Of a DNA stretch of 64,000 nt, positions 41,879 to 58,495 are shown in pieces. Location: NCBI RefSeq assembly GCF_000403435.2, contig NZ_KE159709.1, positions 271,604 through 335,603 on the forward strand. Reading direction: 5' to 3'. The first letter of the stretch is position 1; every line of letters starts with the position of its first letter. Source of the DNA: Oscillibacter sp. 1-3. GTDB taxonomy: Bacteria > Bacillota > Clostridia > Oscillospirales > Oscillospiraceae. Position numbers and translations under genes: made by a program. The notes under the pieces are model-generated. The model ran no database searches, was not told the origin of the DNA, and worked only from the letters and a program-made list of their open reading frames with translations.

Positions 41879-41941
41879 CCGCAGGGCCTTGCCGGTGTCC
41901 TCTCGGGATTGAGGGAGATATTTTACGCGGGAGTGGGAGAT

Positions 41942-42589
41942 ATGTCTGTAAATGTTCAGGACCTGGCCGGACACCTGATCCGGCCCCGCATGGGCCGCAG
42001 GCTGCTGGCTCTGACGCTCAGCCTGATTGTGATCGGGGTCTGTGTGGCGGTATTTAAGACGGTGGGCTTCGGCACCGATCCCTGCTCCACCTTCACCCTG
42101 GGGGTGTCCGCCCGTACCGGCGTGTCCTTTGGAACCTGCCAGCTGGCGTTCAATCTGCTGATGTTCGTACCGGTCCTCCGGTATGATCTGTCCCGCATTG
42201 GGATCGGAACCATTGGCAACATGGTGGGCGTTGGATACATCGCGGATTTCTGTATGAAGCTCATGCAGCAGGCGATTCCGGCAGAGGGGCTCTCTATGAC
42301 GGCCAGAGTCGTGATGCTTGCGCTGAGCATGGCCGGTTTTTTGGTCGCCGCGGCCTTTTACATGGTGGCGGACCTGGGCGTGGCCCCCTATGACGCCGTC
42401 CCGCAGCTGATCGCCGCCCGAGTGAAGGGGTGGAGCTATCGCCGGGTCCGGATGGTCTGGGACATCTCTATTTTGTCTGTGGGCTTTTTTCTGGGCTCCA
42501 CGGTGGGGCTGACGACGGTGCTCACCGGTTTCTGCCTGGGGCCCGTAATTGCGTTGATCTCGGACCGTGTCGGCGGGTGGTTTGCATAG
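41942..42589 (+). CDS. YczE/YitT-like membrane protein
   Basis: 215 residues from the ATG at 41942 (GGGAGTGGGAG upstream); a TTG at 41909 is an alternative. Five hydrophobic segments. Signatures of the YczE/DUF6198 group are GFGTDPCSTFTLGV, the YIADFCMKL segment, DLGVAPYDAVPQLIA and the closing GTVGLTTVLTGFCLGPVIA. The biochemical function is unknown. Whether it belongs with the glycerate kinase operon is unclear; 63 bp separate them. Confidence 0.83.
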   Translation: MSVNVQDLAGHLIRPRMGRRLLALTLSLIVIGVCVAVFKTVGFGTDPCSTFTLGVSARTGVSFGTCQLAFNLLMFVPVLRYDLSRIGIGTIGNMVGVGYIADFCMKLMQQAIPAEGLSMTARVVMLALSMAGFLVAAAFYMVADLGVAPYDAVPQLIAARVKGWSYRRVRMVWDISILSVGFFLGSTVGLTTVLTGFCLGPVIALISDRVGGWFA

Positions 42590-46120: not shown

Positions 46121-47335
46121 CTATTTGGACGTATCCTCCGCCAGGGGCAGACCATAAAAATCCAGACTGGTCAGCCGTTCCGTCTCCGGGGAAAAGGCCA
46201 GCCGGCTGGTGCCGCCGTTGGAGGTGCCGCAGGTGAGAAGCAGCGCACCGTCCTTCTGCCAGGAGATGCCGGTGACGGAGGTCTCCAGGCCGTCCCAGTT
46301 CTGGAGATCATAGACGCCGCCCCAGGAGCCCTCGCCGGGCTTTTGCCATCTGACGGAAAATTCCGTGGGGACATTCGTCAGCGCGGCAGACCAGACGCCG
46401 TCGGCGGACCAGATCTGATAACGGGCAGCATTTCCCTCCAGCCGCCGCGCCGTCGTCTCCTCTGCGGCGGCAATCATCTCCGGCGTTCCCTTCGGGATCA
46501 GCAGGGCGCGGCTGTCATGGTACTGTTCGCCGCTGGCCCAGTCCGTACCGTTGGAGAGGTACAGATCCTGTCCGTCCGTCACCAGATAGGAAAACCGCTG
46601 TTCTTCGATCTTTCCGCTCCGGCGCGCCCGCCGCAGAAAATGGCCGTTTTCATAGATCACATCCTGGATGACAGGGTCACCGTCGCCGCGGTCCTCCACG
46701 GCCCGCAGCTGGCAGGGAACTCCTAGAGCGGATTTGCGCAGGAACGCCTCCACATTCTCCGGATTTCTCATGCCGCTGTTTGCAAATACCACGCAGTCCT
46801 TCGGCGCCGTATCGGCCCGGTAGTTCTCCGGCAGATTCTCCAGAGGTTCAAAGCCGTAAGGGGTTTCTGCTGTGTAAGGGCTTTTTCCCAACTGAAACTC
46901 CACATACGCGGCGGTGTCCCCCAGAGGCTTGACCAATTGATAGCGCCCCGGCTCCGGCGGCTCCTCGTACCTGTCCAGTGTGCAGGTCAGGGCCATTTCA
47001 CCGCCGTGGGCCAGGGAATACCCGATGTGGTTGAAGCCCCAGTTATCCCTGGGGGTCAGGTCTGTCCACATGCCTCCCTCCAGGCGCCGGATCTGGTAAT
47101 CCTCCCCAAACTCCGCAGTCTCTCCCGTCTCATTGCGGATAAAATAGGCAAACGTGGTCAGAGACGGGTCATAGACCTCCCGCTCCATGTCCACGGTCCA
47201 TCCGGGATGGTCTGACGGCGCCTCTCCCGGTCCGCGGAGCCCATCCTCCGGCAAGGGCTCCGGGACTGGCTCTCCCCCGCAGGCGGTCAGGAACAGAATA
47301 CCCAGAAGCAGGATTCCGTTCATTATTTTTTTCAT
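46121..47335 (-). CDS. Putative lipoprotein with Ig-like domain
   Basis: 404 residues from the ATG at 47335 (GGGGG ten bases upstream); a TTG three codons earlier is possible. A lipoprotein signal MKKIMNGILLLGILFLTACG has the lipobox LTAC. Residues about 45-135 (VDMEREVYDPSLTTFAYFIR, then GRYQLVKPL) look like the Ig-like domain common in small Firmicutes lipoproteins that lie near signalling genes. The rest is not recognised. It is divergent from the ssnA leader. The function is unknown. Confidence 0.7.
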   Translation of the reverse strand: MKKIMNGILLLGILFLTACGGEPVPEPLPEDGLRGPGEAPSDHPGWTVDMEREVYDPSLTTFAYFIRNETGETAEFGEDYQIRRLEGGMWTDLTPRDNWGFNHIGYSLAHGGEMALTCTLDRYEEPPEPGRYQLVKPLGDTAAYVEFQLGKSPYTAETPYGFEPLENLPENYRADTAPKDCVVFANSGMRNPENVEAFLRKSALGVPCQLRAVEDRGDGDPVIQDVIYENGHFLRRARRSGKIEEQRFSYLVTDGQDLYLSNGTDWASGEQYHDSRALLIPKGTPEMIAAAEETTARRLEGNAARYQIWSADGVWSAALTNVPTEFSVRWQKPGEGSWGGVYDLQNWDGLETSVTGISWQKDGALLLTCGTSNGGTSRLAFSPETERLTSLDFYGLPLAEDTSK

Positions 47336-47452
47336 CTGTGTCAACCCCCTTTAGTATCTCTTTTGTCGGAAGGACGGTGTAAAAGGTTCCGCCGGTTTCC
47401 GGATTCTGTTAAAAATGTACAAAAAATTTTTTCTTTTTTTCCTATCTGACGC

Positions 47453-47602
47453 TTGTATCCTGCCGTCGTCTCTGGTACAATAAAAACACAAACTGAGAAT
47501 GATAGCTGTAACGGAGTGCCGCGCGCACGGGCTGACACCTATCATTCCTTTTCTTTTGATAGGTGTTTCAAACCAGTCCGGTTTGAGGCGCCTTTTCTTT
47601 TT
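47453..47602 (+). promoter_or_regulatory. ssnA promoter and riboswitch-like terminator leader
   Basis: TTGTAT (47453-47458), 17-bp spacer and an extended -10 TGG-TACAAT (47476-47481) give a start near 47488. The leader holds three mutually exclusive pairings. P1 is GAATGATAG (47497-47505) with CTATCATTC (47539-47547), enclosing 33 nt with an inner GTGC/GCAC hairpin. The antiterminator is ACACCTATC (47535-47543) with GATAGGTGT (47558-47566). The terminator is GGTGTTTCAAACC (47562-47574) with GGTTTGAGGCGCC (47580-47592), then TTTTCTTTTT. This is the architecture of a transcriptional riboswitch. No known class was confidently recognised. Confidence 0.7.
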
Positions 47603-47638
47603 GGAAATCGCCTAAATCAACATCAGGAGGTTTTTCGT

Positions 47639-48982
47639 ATGATCTTACTGGCAAACGGCAGACTCATCACCCGGGACCCCGGCGGCGCGGGCTACCTGCC
47701 CGACGGCGGCGTGGTCACCGACGGCGGAAAGATCGTGGAGGTGGGGGAGACTGCCGCCCTCAGGGACAAGTATCCCCAGGCGGAGTTTGTGGACGCCCGG
47801 GGCGGCGTCATCATGCCTGGCCTCATCAACGCCCACACCCACATCTACTCCGCCCTGGCCCGGGGACTCTCCATCAACGGCTACGCCCCCACCAACTTCT
47901 ATGAGGTGCTGGACGGCCAGTGGTGGTACATCGACCGCCACCTGGATCTGGCGGCTACCCGGGCCAGCGCACAGGCCCTGGTGATCGACTCCATCAAGCA
48001 GGGCGTCACCACTATCTTTGACCACCACGCCTCCTTCTGCGAGATTCCCGGCTCCCTGATGGCGATTGCGGAGGTAACCCGGGAGATGGGGATGCGGGCG
48101 TGCCTCTGCTACGAGGTCAGCGACCGGGACGGGGAGGAGAAGTCCCTCCAGTCCGTTCAGGAGAACAAGGATTTCATCGACTACTGCGAGAAGAACCCCA
48201 GCGGTATGCTCAAGGCCATGTTCGGAGGTCACGCGCTCTTTACCATCTCCGACAAGACCTTTGAACGCATGAACGCCGCCAACGCCGGCCGGGTGGGCTA
48301 CCACATCCACGTCTCCGAGGGCATGAACGATGTGTACGACAGCCTCCAGAACTACGGCCGCCGTCCGGTCCAGCGGCTCCAGGACCATGGGATTCTGGGT
48401 TCCAAGACCATTCTTGGCCACTGCATCCACGTGAACACTGCCGAGATGGACATCATCAAGGCCACGGATACCATGTGCGTCAACAACCCCGAGAGCAACA
48501 TGGGCAACGCCGTGGGCTGCTCCCCGGTGCTCCGGCTCTTCCAAAAAGGCATTCTGGTGGGGCTGGGTACCGACGCCTACACCAACGACATGCTGGAGAG
48601 CATCAAGGCGGCCCTGACCATCCAGCGGCACAACGCGTGCCTGCCCGGCGTGGGCTGGTGCGAGGTGACGGACATGCTCTTTAAGAACAACGCAAAAATG
48701 GCCCGGCGGGCAGGATTCCCGGAGATGGGCGTTTTGAAGGCCGGAGCGGCGGCGGATGTGATCGTCATGGACTACAAGCCCTTCACCCCGTTCAGCGGCG
48801 CCAACATCGATGGCCATATGCTCTTCGGCATGACGGGCCGCCAGTGTCAGACCACCATGGTAAACGGCAAAATTTTGATGAGGGACCGGGTGTTGACCGA
48901 GATCGACGAGGAGGCCGTCAATGCGAAGATCCTGGAGGTCTCTAAAAAGCTCTGGGGGACCCTGAACCACTGCGAGTATTGA
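47639..48982 (+). CDS. ssnA: SsnA-type amidohydrolase (putative purine-related aminohydrolase)
   Basis: 447 residues from the ATG at 47639 (AGGAGG nine bases upstream); the frame is open further upstream through the leader but without a credible start. Amidohydrolase motifs: VIMPGLINAHTHIYSALARG with the metal HxH near 66-68, FDHHASF, VGYHIHVSEG, LGHCIHV and LGTDAYTNDML. It matches SsnA, an enzyme of the ygfK/ssnA/xdh cluster linked to purine and urate breakdown and selenium-dependent hydroxylases. Its precise reaction is not established. ygfK follows after 27 bp. Confidence 0.88.
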   Translation: MILLANGRLITRDPGGAGYLPDGGVVTDGGKIVEVGETAALRDKYPQAEFVDARGGVIMPGLINAHTHIYSALARGLSINGYAPTNFYEVLDGQWWYIDRHLDLAATRASAQALVIDSIKQGVTTIFDHHASFCEIPGSLMAIAEVTREMGMRACLCYEVSDRDGEEKSLQSVQENKDFIDYCEKNPSGMLKAMFGGHALFTISDKTFERMNAANAGRVGYHIHVSEGMNDVYDSLQNYGRRPVQRLQDHGILGSKTILGHCIHVNTAEMDIIKATDTMCVNNPESNMGNAVGCSPVLRLFQKGILVGLGTDAYTNDMLESIKAALTIQRHNACLPGVGWCEVTDMLFKNNAKMARRAGFPEMGVLKAGAAADVIVMDYKPFTPFSGANIDGHMLFGMTGRQCQTTMVNGKILMRDRVLTEIDEEAVNAKILEVSKKLWGTLNHCEY

Positions 48983-49009: not shown

Positions 49010-51958
49010 ATGTCTGAACTGATGACCCCCATTCCCTTCCGGGAATTGATGACCTGGGTGACCGCCGAATACCAGAGAGAAGGTACAGTTTTCGGTGTCC
49101 ACAGGCCCTACAGGGCGGGCGTCAAGACCCTGCCCATCTTCGGTGAGAAGATCGAGACCCCCTTCGGCCCCGCCGCCGGACCCAACACCCAGCTGGCCCA
49201 GAATATCATCGCCGGCTATTTCGCTGGCGCACGGTTCTTTGAGTTGAAAACCGTCCAGAAAATGGACGGAGCGGACCTGGCCGCCTGCATCAACCGCCCC
49301 TGCATCCTGGCGGAGGATGAGTGCTACAACTGCGAGTGGTCCACGGAGCTCTATGTCCAGCAGGCCTTTGAGGAGTATGTCAAAGCCTGGTGCGCCTGCA
49401 AGGTCATGGCCAAGGCGTACGGCCTGGGAGACCCGGACGCCTTTGTGTTCAATATGTCCGTGGGCTATGACCTGGCGGGCATCCAGGGCGGGAAGATTGA
49501 CGCCTTCCTGAACGGCATGACCAATGCCTCCCAGACGCCCATCTTCCAGGAGTGCATCAAGGTTTTGAAGGAGTTTTTCCCTGGGGAGAGCGCCTTCATT
49601 GATACCATCTCCCCCCGGATCTCCGGCAGCGTGACCCTCTCCACCCTCCACGGCTGTCCGCCGGACGAGATCGAGCGCATTGCCAGTTACCTCATTGAGA
49701 AAAAGGGTCTCCACACCTTTGTCAAGTGCAACCCCACCATCCTGGGCTACGAGACCGCCCGCTCCATCCTGGACGGTATGGGCTACGACTATATCGCCTT
49801 CGACGATCATCATTTCAAAGAGGATCTCCAGTACCAGGACGCCGTGCCCATGTTCCGCCGCCTGCAGGCTCTGGCGGACAAGTGCGGCGTGGAGTTTGGC
49901 CTAAAACTCTCCAATACCTTCCCCGTGGATGTGAAGGCCGGGGAGCTCCCCAGCGAGGAGATGTATATGGCGGGGAAGTCCCTCTTCCCCCTGACCACCA
50001 CAATGGCCGCCCGCATCTCCCGGGAGTTCGGCGGAAAAATGCGGATCAGCTACGCCGGCGGCGCGGACGCGCTGAACATCGACAAGCTGTTCTCCCTTGG
50101 CATCTGGCCCATCACCATGGCCACCACGGAGCTCAAGCCCGGCGGCTACCAGCGCTTCGTCCAGATCGGCGACAAGCTGGACGCTTTGGAGTTCAAGCCC
50201 TTCACCGGCGTGGACGTGGCGGGCATCGAGGCCCTGGCCCTGGCGGCCCGATCCGACAAGTACCATGTTAAGGCTGTGAAGCCCCTGCCCCGGCGGAAGC
50301 TCTATGAGAAGGTGCCGCTGATGGACTGCTTCACCGCCCCCTGCAAGGGCGGCTGCCCCATCCAGCAAGACATCCCGGAGTATATCGAGCTGTGCCGCAA
50401 GGGCCGGTATGACTCCGCCCTGCGGTTGATCTGCGAGAAGAACCCCCTGCCCTTCATCACCGGCACCATCTGCGCCCACCGCTGCCAGACCAAGTGTACC
50501 CGGAATTTCTATGACGACTCCGTCCAGATCCGCGCTGCCAAGCTGGTGGCCGCTGAGAGGGGCTACGACGCCTATGTGTCCAAGATCAAACCGGCGGCCC
50601 CGGTGAAAGACGGCCGGAAAGTGGCCGTCGTCGGCGGCGGTCCCGCCGGCATGGCCGCAGCTTATTTTGTGGGCCGGGCGGGCATCCCTGTCACCGTCTT
50701 TGAAAAGTCCGGCAGCCTGGGCGGCATCGTCCGGCAGGTGATCCCTGCCTTCCGCATCAGCGATGAGGCCATCGACAAGGACGCGGCCCTCATCGCCAGG
50801 ATGGGCGCGGAGATCAAGCTGAACACCCCCGCCCCCTCTGTTGCGGAGCTGAAAGCCGAAGGGTATACCCACATCTTCTTCGCCGCGGGCGCCTGGAAGG
50901 CCGGAAGGCTGGACATTCCCGGCAACGTGGTGCCCGTCATCGGCTGGCTGAAGGATTTGAAGGCCGGGAAAGACGTCTCCCTGGGCCATGTGGCCGTGGT
51001 GGGCGGCGGCAACACCGCCATGGACGCCGCCCGGGCGGCTCTCCGGGCCGGGGCCAAGTCCTCCACCCTGGTATATCGCCGAACCAAGAAGTATATGCCC
51101 GCCGACGCCGAAGAACTGGAGCTGGCCATCGCCGACGGTGTGAACTTCCTGGAGCTGGTGGCCCCCGTGGAGCAGAGCGGCGGCAGGCTCCGCTGCGAGA
51201 AGATGAAGCTGGGCGAGCCCGACGAGAAGGGCCGCCGGAAGCCGGAGCCCACCGGCGAGTTTGTGGAGATCGACTGTGACACCGTTATCTCCGCCGTGGG
51301 TGAGAAGGTGGAGAGCGAGCTGTTCACCGCCAACGGCATCGAGGTGGACGGTAAGGGCCTGCCGGCCTTCAAGACCAACGTGGAGGGCGTGTACGCCGGC
51401 GGCGACGCCATGCGGGGCCCCGCCACTGTGGTGGAGGGCATCGCGGACGCCCAGTGGTTCGCAAACGCCGTCATTGGCGAGACTTACAAGTACGCCGTCC
51501 CCGCCCACGCCAGGGCCGGCCGGGCGGAGGCCATCGCCAAGAAGGGCGTCCTCTGCGAGTCCGCCAAGTGCGAGGGAGACCGGTGCCTGACCTGCAACGT
51601 GGTGTGCCAGGTCTGCGCCGACGTGTGCCCCAACCGGGCCAACGTGGTGGTGGAGCTGCCCGACGGGCGGCATGAGATCCTCCACGTGGACCGGATGTGC
51701 AACGAGTGCGGCAACTGCGCCATCTTCTGCCCCTACGACTCCGCGCCGTACCGGGACAAGTTCACCCTGTTCAAGACCCGGGAGGGCTTTGACGAGAGCG
51801 TGAACAACCAGGGCTTCCTGCCCCTGGGCGGCAGGAAGGCGCTGGTCCGGCTGGACGGGAAGGTCTTCGAGGCCGACCTGGACGGCGCCAACGACCTGCC
51901 CGCGGAGATTGAGGTCCTGATTCTGACGGTGCTGACCAAGTATACCTATCTGCTGTGA
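49010..51958 (+). CDS. ygfK: YgfK, putative selenate reductase/purine-catabolism oxidoreductase
   Basis: 982 residues, one gene with AGGAGG before the ATG. The N-terminal half is dihydropyrimidine/dihydroorotate dehydrogenase-like (FGPAAGPNTQLAQNIIAGYF, FVKCNPTILGYE, RISYAGGADALNIDKLF). The central cysteine region (CFTAPCKGGCPIQQDIPEY, CAHRCQTKC) resembles the GltD-type Fe-S domain. The FAD/NAD domain follows (KVAVVGGGPAGMAAAYF, HVAVVGGGNTAMDAARAAL). The C-terminus has clustered Cys motifs (CLTCNVVCQVCADVCP, CNECGNCAIFCPYDSAPY). YgfK is essential for anaerobic urate/purine degradation in related gut bacteria; electron flow details are inferred. Confidence 0.9.
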   Translation: MSELMTPIPFRELMTWVTAEYQREGTVFGVHRPYRAGVKTLPIFGEKIETPFGPAAGPNTQLAQNIIAGYFAGARFFELKTVQKMDGADLAACINRPCILAEDECYNCEWSTELYVQQAFEEYVKAWCACKVMAKAYGLGDPDAFVFNMSVGYDLAGIQGGKIDAFLNGMTNASQTPIFQECIKVLKEFFPGESAFIDTISPRISGSVTLSTLHGCPPDEIERIASYLIEKKGLHTFVKCNPTILGYETARSILDGMGYDYIAFDDHHFKEDLQYQDAVPMFRRLQALADKCGVEFGLKLSNTFPVDVKAGELPSEEMYMAGKSLFPLTTTMAARISREFGGKMRISYAGGADALNIDKLFSLGIWPITMATTELKPGGYQRFVQIGDKLDALEFKPFTGVDVAGIEALALAARSDKYHVKAVKPLPRRKLYEKVPLMDCFTAPCKGGCPIQQDIPEYIELCRKGRYDSALRLICEKNPLPFITGTICAHRCQTKCTRNFYDDSVQIRAAKLVAAERGYDAYVSKIKPAAPVKDGRKVAVVGGGPAGMAAAYFVGRAGIPVTVFEKSGSLGGIVRQVIPAFRISDEAIDKDAALIARMGAEIKLNTPAPSVAELKAEGYTHIFFAAGAWKAGRLDIPGNVVPVIGWLKDLKAGKDVSLGHVAVVGGGNTAMDAARAALRAGAKSSTLVYRRTKKYMPADAEELELAIADGVNFLELVAPVEQSGGRLRCEKMKLGEPDEKGRRKPEPTGEFVEIDCDTVISAVGEKVESELFTANGIEVDGKGLPAFKTNVEGVYAGGDAMRGPATVVEGIADAQWFANAVIGETYKYAVPAHARAGRAEAIAKKGVLCESAKCEGDRCLTCNVVCQVCADVCPNRANVVVELPDGRHEILHVDRMCNECGNCAIFCPYDSAPYRDKFTLFKTREGFDESVNNQGFLPLGGRKALVRLDGKVFEADLDGANDLPAEIEVLILTVLTKYTYLL

Positions 51959-56609: not shown

Positions 56610-57832
56610 GTGGATGGATATCCGAAGCGACAGACAAAAAGGCTGAGCTATGTGGAGCTGGGACGGAAGTACCGCATGGATCCGCGAACAGCAAAGCGGT
56701 ACGCGGAATCGCCGCAGAAGCCGAAGTACACATTGCGCGAACCCAAGCCAACAAAGATGGACCCGTACAAGCAGATCATGGACGAGTGGCTGGAGGAAGC
56801 GCCTTATTCGGCGCAGCGGATACTGGAGAAGCTGCAGGAGATGGGGTTTGACGGGGCTGCAGCATCGTCAAGGCGTATGTGAGCAGCCGGAAGATGGATT
56901 TGAATGAGAAAGCGACGGTACGGTTTGAGATAATGCAGGGGAAACAGGGACAGATGGACTGAGGATTTTTCGAGGATCACCTGGTATACGAGGATGGGAA
57001 GTGGAAAAAGCTGTACTGCTTTCTCATGATACTGGGGTACTCACGGATGCGGTACATCGCATTTGTCACAGATATGAGCATAAACACGCTGATTCGGCGC
57101 CACCAGAACGCGTTTCGGTACTTTGGCGGCTGCCCAGAGGAAATCCTGTACAACAACATGAAGCAGGTGGTCATCAAGCGGCTGCTGAAACAGGAGGACT
57201 CTACGCTGAACCGGCAGTTTGAGGACTTCGCGGGGTTCCACGGTTTCAGGTCCATCCTGTGCTGGCCTTACCGGGGACAGACGAAGGGAAAGGTGGAGCG
57301 GACGGTGCAGTTTGTGCGGGAGTGCGAAGCCTGCCCTTGGGCGCAACTTCATGGTCGGGATCAAATACAACAGCCTGGCAGATTTGAATGGACAAGCCGG
57401 TGCAATAACGTCAATGGGAAGGTCCACGCCACCACCAATGAGATTCCCTTTGAGCGGCTGAAAAAGGAGGGCCTAAGCCCTCTTTCCCGAGAGTACATCA
57501 TCGACAAAATCAACTTGAGGCGGGTACAAAAAGACTGCCTCATCTCGTACGCCGGAAATCAGTACTCCGTGCCGGCGGAGTACATCGGCAAAGATGTGGC
57601 AGTCGTGGCCCTCGACAGTATGCTGGCGGCCTACTATGAGGGGAAGCAGATCGCTCTGCACCGAATATCGTATCAGAGAAAGGACATGGTTGTCAATCCT
57701 CAGCATTATCGAAGGCTTACATTGAAACAGACAATGGGCACGGAAAATGTTCTGCTGGATCAGGGAAAAGTGATTGATTTCCCCTTGAAACCGTCCAATT
57801 TGTCCAGATATGACGAGGTGCTGTATGACTGA
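56610..57832 (+). pseudogene. istA: IS21-like transposase IstA, broken
   Basis: The first frame (56610-56854) gives the N-terminal HTH part (SYVELGRKYRMDPRTAKRYA). It shifts to another frame at about 56855 (CSIVKAYVSSRKMDLNEKAT), which meets an in-frame TGA at 56960, where homologues have Trp. The same frame then continues to 57832 with the rve/DDE integrase region (LILGYSRMRYIAF, YNNMKQVVI, YRGQTKGKVERTVQFVREC) and a C-terminal domain. So there is one frameshift plus one nonsense codon. The stop overlaps istB (ATGACTGA). Confidence 0.82.
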
Positions 57833-58495
57833 ATTTACCATGGACAGGCTGCGGGAAAACCTGGAAAGCCTTAAGATGAAAAACACCCTGGAGATTCTGG
57901 ACAACTACCTGGAACGGGCGGTAGCAGAAAACACTATTGTGGAGGTTTTGGATCATATTTTCTCAGAAGAGGCAAAATCCAAATGGAAACGGGCCTATGA
58001 GAAGCAAATCCAGATGTCTGGTTTTCCCATCAAGAAGACTTTGGAGGACTTTGACTTTTCCTTCCAGCCCTCCATCGACAAGCGTCGGATCGATGAACTG
58101 GCCACCATGCGCTTCCTGGAAAACGGCGAGAATGTAGTCTTCCTCGGCCCACTCGGCGTGGGCAAGACCCATCTTGCCTCCGCTTTAGGCCTGGTGGCGG
58201 CGCGGCACCGTTTCTCTACCTACTACATCAACTGCCACCAACTCATTGAGCAGCTCAAGAAGGCCCATCTCAAGAACCGCCTGCCGGACAAGCTCAAGGT
58301 CCTGACCGAGTACAGGATGCTCATCATCGACGAAATCGGCTATCCAAGACGCAAATCTCTTTTTCCAGCTCATTGCCAGGCGGTACGAGAAAACGTCTGC
58401 CGTTTTCACTTCAAACAAGACCTTCTCTCAGTGGAATGAGGTCGTTGCCGACGTTACAATCGCCTCCGCCATTCTGGACCGCGTCCTACATCTGG
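57825..58495 (+). pseudogene. istB: IS21-like helper ATPase IstB, frameshifted and truncated
   Basis: From the ATG at 57825 the IstB/DnaC-like ATPase is intact through Walker A (GPLGVGKTHLASALGL) and Walker B (RMLIIDEIGY). A small out-of-frame deletion at about 58345 then shifts it. The other frame carries on with FFQLIARRYEKTSAVFTSNK and VVADVTIASAILDRVLH to about 58492, where the sequence changes to a piece of an ABC transporter on the other strand. The right end of the element is lost. Confidence 0.82.

Follow-up and report, generated by a model that had tools for sequence, protein, structure and literature searches.

What switches on ssnA and ygfK in Oscillibacter sp. 1-3, and what does the RNA ahead of them sense? 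The question is raised by a leader at 47488-47638 of a 64,000-nucleotide stretch of DNA (the window); its helices lie where an earlier reading of the sequence, called the original prediction below, had drawn them. That prediction saw a riboswitch-like transcription attenuator. Its competing helices and its promoter stand; its aptamer stem, its sign and its lack of a class are not supported. The reading preferred here, which draws on sequence comparison and folding models, is that the leader is an ssnA-family RNA acting as a substrate-induced transcriptional ON switch, with urate or yanthine as the most likely ligand, and as a whole this has a little better than an even chance of being right.

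The class can be named. The original prediction could not assign the leader to one, and a covariance-model search places it in Rfam RF03031 (“ssnA”) with 62.2 bits against a gathering cut-off of 37.3 (E 7.1e-15 over the window), the match spanning positions 1-48 of the 48 in the model. The P1/P2 hairpin is present with an internal loop of the GUAACGnA type (GUAACGGA in the window) and has no non-standard pair, and the position upstream of ssnA-type genes that goes with the family is there as well, with ssnA beginning at 47639. The leader is a member of this known candidate riboswitch family. The motif was reportedly first described in 2017 by Weinberg et al. In the open-access literature neither its ligand nor its direction was found, and a published answer may exist elsewhere. 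The other four Rfam matches at E <= 10 within 47300-47800 all fall below their own cut-offs. Among these five matches, and among the three at gathering score in the window, neither the NMT1 xanthine riboswitch nor the purine riboswitch appears. Elsewhere in the window, the minus strand carries a pemK RNA (RF02913, 62732-62829, 57.7 bits, cut-off 34.8), and adjacent open reading frames at 57026-58439 are what we take to be an IstA/IstB transposase pair.

The genome from which the window comes has one copy of the RNA by covariance-model search. Of 400 genomes from the window's taxonomic family, 110 have an RF03031 match (103 above cut-off); in the order the figure is 18 of 394, 16 of those belonging to the window's family, and in the phylum 4 of 398, two of them above cut-off, including the window's own. 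A core-only model run over the class with stricter filters matches the window's own genome and no other (1/366). The core pattern occurs in at least 119 public stretches, and among the 80 listed, many are titled Oscillospiraceae, Oscillibacter, Intestinimonas or Dysosmobacter. The RNA is found in 105 of the 130 genomes that bear ssnA (at E <= 1e-100) among the 400 of the family, and in the 25 without it the best E of the core-only model is 0.09; these 25 weigh against the ON-switch reading. Two copies before ssnA lie outside the window's order or under an outlying label (leader L158 in genome G1114, and L212 in a MAG titled Megamonas) and may reflect horizontal transfer or misbinned contigs.

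For comparison, 190 distinct leaders were gathered by RF03031 or by the core pattern and then filtered with the core expression, so the invariance of the core columns is partly built in by this selection; nine loci (six distinct places) had no core-expression match, and all six score below the Rfam cut-off. There are 130 representatives less than 0.90 alike, of which 129 were aligned (alignment A1) and one lies too close to a contig end. A 57-row alignment of window-like leaders was picked by the B pattern and, less strictly, by that of A (the strands are defined in the table), with L158 omitted by hand. All p-values take the leaders as independent, sequence kinship being ignored throughout. 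By layout, the 190 comprise 110 with the B motif, 26 clean compact leaders, 22 that overlap loosely and 32 that match neither layout. Their terminators were called as overlapping the aptamer in 31, downstream of it in 140, and none or weak in 19; a looser caller gives 48 overlapping of 190, several of them multi-branched and not convincing.

Table. Features of the ssnA-ygfK leader and its genes, in window positions.
Feature	Position	Strand	Basis or remark
-35 box TTGTAT	47453-47458	+	17-nt spacer to -10
-10 box TACAAT	47476-47481	+	presumed start near 47488; like spacing in 61/85 leaders
RF03031 ssnA RNA match	47496-47543	+	62.2 bits
A strand (5' strand of the original prediction's “P1”)	47497-47505	+	proposed anti-antiterminator; pairs with B 47539-47547
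Conserved hairpin, taken as aptamer	47503-47534	+	Rfam alignment, pair counts
Hairpin P1	47503-47507/47530-47534	+	Rfam alignment
Hairpin internal loop	47508-47515 and 47529	+	Rfam alignment
Hairpin P2	47516-47519/47525-47528	+	Rfam alignment
B strand	47535-47547	+	47539-47547 with A (predicted off state); 47535-47543 with C (predicted on state)
C strand, antiterminator 3' strand	47558-47566	+	overlaps 5' arm of terminator
Intrinsic terminator hairpin, 14 bp, then T run	47561-47593	+	sequence, folding, pair changes
Shine-Dalgarno-like AGGAGG	47625-47630	+	sequence
ssnA	47639-48982	+	TIGR03314, NF005540 above cut-off; by homology, amidohydrolase opening reduced yanthine
ygfK	49010-51958	+	TIGR03315, 1289.7 bits, above cut-off; by homology, yanthine reductase

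Base by base, the helices drawn in the original prediction hold up. The outer nine-pair helix (A:B) and the antiterminator (B:C) each consist of 9/9 Watson-Crick pairs, and the proposed terminator is indeed a hairpin, pairing 47561-47574 with 47580-47593 (3 of the 14 pairs are G-U), with a T run after it. The fold of 47488-47600 reaches -40.1 kcal/mol; its dinucleotide shuffles average -26.95 +/- 3.51 (z = -3.75), and two in 200 do as well. The promoter fits as had been claimed, with both boxes and their spacer in place; a promoter-like pair scoring at least 8/12 is seen in 85 of 128 representative leaders versus 28 of 128 mononucleotide-shuffled ones, and in 61 of the 85 scored leaders, the -10 box ends 23-29 nt ahead of the core CUG (24 in the window). 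The start so placed is upstream of 47540; one downstream of that position was named in the original prediction as an observation that would speak against a riboswitch.

The same helices recur in related leaders. A:B is paired in 88.9% of cells in the 57 window-like leaders, with 56-57 of 57 pairing in the six inner columns and 20, 50 and 46 in the outer three. The antiterminator comes in two registers: in the window's sub-type, 11-13 of 13 leaders pair in each of 9 columns, and in the other sub-type, 42-44 of 44 pair in each of 5 columns. The terminator has 92.2% of its cells paired and two-sided changes in 11 of 13 pairs. The covariation that the original prediction proposed to test in orthologous leaders is strong for the terminator, modest for the aptamer stems and unclear for the nine-pair helix. 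This last has two-sided changes at 3 pairs in 14 cells, whereas the same helix slid by +2 columns has 4 and 16 and by +3 columns 5 and 23, and 92 of 500 shuffles show at least as many changed pairs. Since slid helices do as well, the case for A:B is built on pairing and on the association of A with B, not on covariation. In per-leader shuffle tests, A:B and B:C each give p <= 0.05 in only 52 of 140.

Which part, then, is the aptamer? In alignment A1, four P1 and four P2 pairs form almost without exception (99.9% of 1008 cells), and 20 cells have changed on both sides compared to 4.8 +/- 1.7 in shuffles; variation is small, so covariation lends these stems modest support. The outermost P1 pair, which is absent in part of the leaders, was left out of the count because of gaps. 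The original prediction had taken the nine-pair helix as the aptamer stem, and the columns on its A side prove to be conserved only alongside the B partner. Among the 57 leaders with a B strand, columns 4-10 of A1 carry 0.95-2.00 bits (column 6: 0.19); among the remaining 72 they carry 0.01-0.37 bits. Columns 8 and 10 do not vary at all in the 57 (2.0 bits each) and fall to 0.04 and 0.37 bits in the other 72. The Rfam hairpin, with its 3' partner at 47530-47534, is kept both with and without the B strand. A fairer test than the 57-row alignment sets the groups by B alone: of 60 representatives with the B motif, 58 also carry A (G[AG]T[AG]G), versus 4 of 69 without it. Also, helices of at least 6 pairs running outward from the last A base occur in 58 of 129 leaders with their own partners versus 29.3 (highest 37) with swapped ones. 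The two B leaders that lack the A motif, L111 and L155, may owe their B matches to chance. As the A motif tracks B and the hairpin is kept regardless, A and B would belong to the expression platform rather than to the aptamer, and the nine-pair helix is probably not an aptamer stem.

Two larger versions of the aptamer were considered and dropped. One that reaches further upstream is left scant room by the common -10 spacing. An outward extension of P1 in the 72 leaders without B finds pairs in 47, 30, 31 and 21 of 72 at successive positions, compared to 44.4, 23.8, 28.3 and 31.1 of 72 with swapped partners, and a longer P1 is not claimed.

By sequence and folding, the leader has what riboswitches in general have, namely a conserved structured domain in the 5' leader and a platform of mutually exclusive helices. 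Strand A reaches into P1: its last three nucleotides (47503-47505) are also the first three of P1, and this overlap makes P1 and the full A:B mutually exclusive; in the computed ensemble also, full A:B excludes the conserved P1. No other nucleotides are shared by A:B and P1, and P1/P2 can form together with the six outer A:B pairs as a hybrid (-9.9), which weighs against the ON model. When folding is staged by the position of the 3' end, P1 stands at 0.89 at 47534; at 47547, A:B is at 1.00 and P1 at 0.00; and at 47570, B:C is at 0.91 and P1 at 0.68. At 47580, P1 falls to 0.01 with B:C at 1.00, 47528-47534 being paired with 47574-47580, and at 47594, the terminator and A:B are both at 1.00. The loss of P1 at 47580 counts against the ON model in these calculations. 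The OFF end state (A:B, P2 and terminator) is computed at -35.7 kcal/mol versus -16.9 kcal/mol for the ON state (P1, P2 and B:C). This means that the full-length RNA is thermodynamically OFF, and the choice of ON would have to be kinetic, by kinetic trapping.

The proposed sequence of events starts with the small P1/P2 hairpin, which would form first as the RNA emerges. With no ligand, 47539-47547 of B would displace P1 by pairing with A, strand C would be left free, and the terminator would form, turning the operon OFF. A ligand at the conserved internal loop would hold P1 and so block the full A:B; B could then pair with C, the terminator would be delayed or blocked, and ssnA-ygfK would be transcribed. 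The sign given in the original prediction, in which a stabilised P1 means OFF, depends on the nine-pair helix being the aptamer. If the aptamer is instead the conserved hairpin, stabilising it prevents the full A:B and leaves B available to C, which favours ON. That the hairpin binds a small molecule, and that the response in the cell runs in this direction, is what we infer from the anatomy.

Relatives without A and B point the same way. In 26 leaders, selected for overlap, nucleotides from the 3' half of the aptamer lie inside the terminator stem. For example, the terminator of L110 has an 18-bp stem that extends from the 3' strand of P2 through that of P1. The compact criteria had admitted 28 leaders, and two (L173 and L176) were dropped after the pair-count result was seen. 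That pair count beat shuffles in just 5 of 28, a weak result explained by the G+C-rich 3' half of the aptamer, which pairs easily. The folding-energy test with the aptamer 3' half, adopted after that, gives p <= 0.05 in 20 of the 26 (mean z -3.62), in leaders selected for overlap. A folded aptamer and this terminator cannot coexist, so a ligand would again mean ON; in either layout, a stabilised hairpin would have the operon transcribed. Read from sequence, they suggest two platforms, an anti-antiterminator and a terminator built from the aptamer. The wider proposal, of a dedicated ON riboswitch for yanthine or urate in Oscillospiraceae with at least two platforms around one aptamer of ~32 nt, is tentative and falls somewhat short of an even chance.

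Other arrangements exist as well. Five leaders (L168, L208, L254, L226 and L195) have the core RNA close to a Shine-Dalgarno sequence and ssnA, with no terminator found, and possibly use a translational platform. Tandem ssnA RNAs stand before ssnA in L155 (169 nt apart, cores at 1510 and 1679) and in L173 from Gemmiger sp. An87 (167 nt apart, reverse strand, at 687 and 854); such a tandem arrangement could make the response sharper.

The genes under control speak to the ligand. In the window, ssnA and ygfK both score above curated NCBIfam cut-offs. An SsnA homologue lies downstream of 180 of the 190 leaders by tblastn (179 within 400 nt and one at 421), with a median identity of 75% to the window's SsnA. 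For four of the ten other leaders, the available DNA ends before a target gene. Leader L093 precedes a hydantoinase (TIGR02033), and three leaders in three genomes (L099, L112 and L116) precede an NfnAB-like pair, annotated from L116 only as sulfide/dihydroorotate dehydrogenase-like plus gltA-type proteins; Nfn is the name we assume for it, and it is perhaps the reductant supply for urate reduction. L258 precedes a membrane protein that has no NCBIfam match at 1e-20 and is presumably YczE-like, and L237 precedes an apparent fragment of a protein of this type. The NfnAB-like and membrane-protein targets are not specific to urate and count against the urate reading. A membrane-like protein encoded at 41909-42589 of the window is weakly similar to the one after L258 (25% over 162 aa, E 7e-6). 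In genome G352 the RNA occurs three times, before ssnA, a hydantoinase and an NfnAB-like pair.

Further along the operons, ygfK is found in 125 of the 180 chains downstream of ssnA, many of which end with the available DNA. Members of the clusters represented by Se-dependent xdh occur in 13 of the 180 ssnA chains, hydantoinase in 6, ygeY in 4 and ygeX in 3. Judged by homology, the target and operon genes are those of reductive urate breakdown, and the purine/urate context that the original prediction had noticed is borne out by ssnA-ygfK and the operon genes. The enzyme chemistry, published in 2025 (PMC12507026), was worked out with enzymes of E. coli and C. difficile. It begins with the reduction of urate to yanthine; YgfK and SsnA, which in E. 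coli convert yanthine together, carry out its reduction and opening, and HyuA opens the product of that step. PMC12990295 places ygfK and ssnA among the urate-induced genes common to distant gut bacteria. In the window's genome, Se-dependent xdh and ygeX are on another contig, and with its single RNA copy, the switch there would govern the yanthine-consuming pair ssnA-ygfK. The best guess for the ligand is one of the two compounds with which reductive urate breakdown starts, urate or yanthine (2,8-dioxopurine); the guess comes from gene context through the targets ssnA and ygfK, and that context cannot separate the two compounds.

The same reliance on gene context leaves room for an ON riboswitch with another ligand, be it xanthine, guanine, hypoxanthine, a compound further down the pathway, or a signal of redox state, selenium or molybdenum. 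Gene context is the sole guide to the ligand's identity, xanthine is one step from urate, and the NfnAB-like pair and Se-dependent xdh are among the targets or operon members. However, the genes most often found behind the RNA are ssnA and ygfK, whose products in the organisms studied work on yanthine and reduced yanthine, with HyuA taking the intermediate that follows (PMC12507026); a metal signal, moreover, would not readily account for the hydantoinase. Another ligand is unlikely. A regulatory protein could also stabilise the conserved hairpin as an antitermination signal. The hairpin is small and its conserved internal loop asymmetric, which would suit a protein; the switching logic would be identical, and the small-molecule ligand proposed here is putative. 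Against this, no known protein-binding leader is among the five Rfam matches at E <= 10; a match to a known protein-dependent attenuator was one of the things that the original prediction named as speaking against it. Such a mechanism is unlikely.

In the OFF reading, the nine-pair helix would be the closing stem of the aptamer, and the ligand would sequester B, let the terminator form and shut off ssnA-ygfK by feedback repression. The helix is perfect and in the minimum-free-energy fold, its cells pair in window-like leaders at the high rate given above, and a hybrid of its outer six pairs with P1/P2 is possible. Yet 65 of the 69 representatives without B are also without A and retain the core hairpin, nearly all the collected leaders serve the same gene, and the full helix excludes the conserved P1. 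The compact leaders imply ON, and urate is reported to induce these genes in other gut bacteria (PMC12990295). Feedback repression through this helix appears quite improbable.

If the urate or yanthine ON switch is real, it would be an RNA sensor tied to the removal of urate by gut bacteria, bearing on hyperuricaemia, and its hairpin would be a small aptamer for urate or yanthine. The 2025 enzyme chemistry makes the ligand guess testable with both compounds.

Among known systems, the closest is Rfam RF03031 itself, the same model over 48 positions on the same strand upstream of ssnA. Its model pairs cover the hairpin only; the switching helices, the ON logic and the assignment to the urate pathway are added here, though the 2017 description may already give some of them. 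With these additions the anatomy changes, the direction is turned round and can be tested, and a definite ligand is proposed. The NMT1 xanthine riboswitch (PMC7373994) is similarly a hairpin with a conserved internal bulge and senses xanthine and uric acid; it is reported to be a translational OFF switch, confined to Proteobacteria, that represses genes making oxidised purines. It is of a different sequence family from the ssnA RNA (absent at E <= 10), which, unlike NMT1, is terminator-based, proposed to be ON, and placed before catabolic genes. The adenine riboswitch activates genes by disrupting a transcription terminator, as is proposed for the ssnA leader. Its aptamer is a three-way junction, and the ssnA leader has no purine-riboswitch match. 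The HMP-PP riboswitch has its aptamer embedded in the terminator, just as the compact ssnA relatives do, and differs in its aptamer and ligand, whereas the window's leader uses a separate antiterminator.
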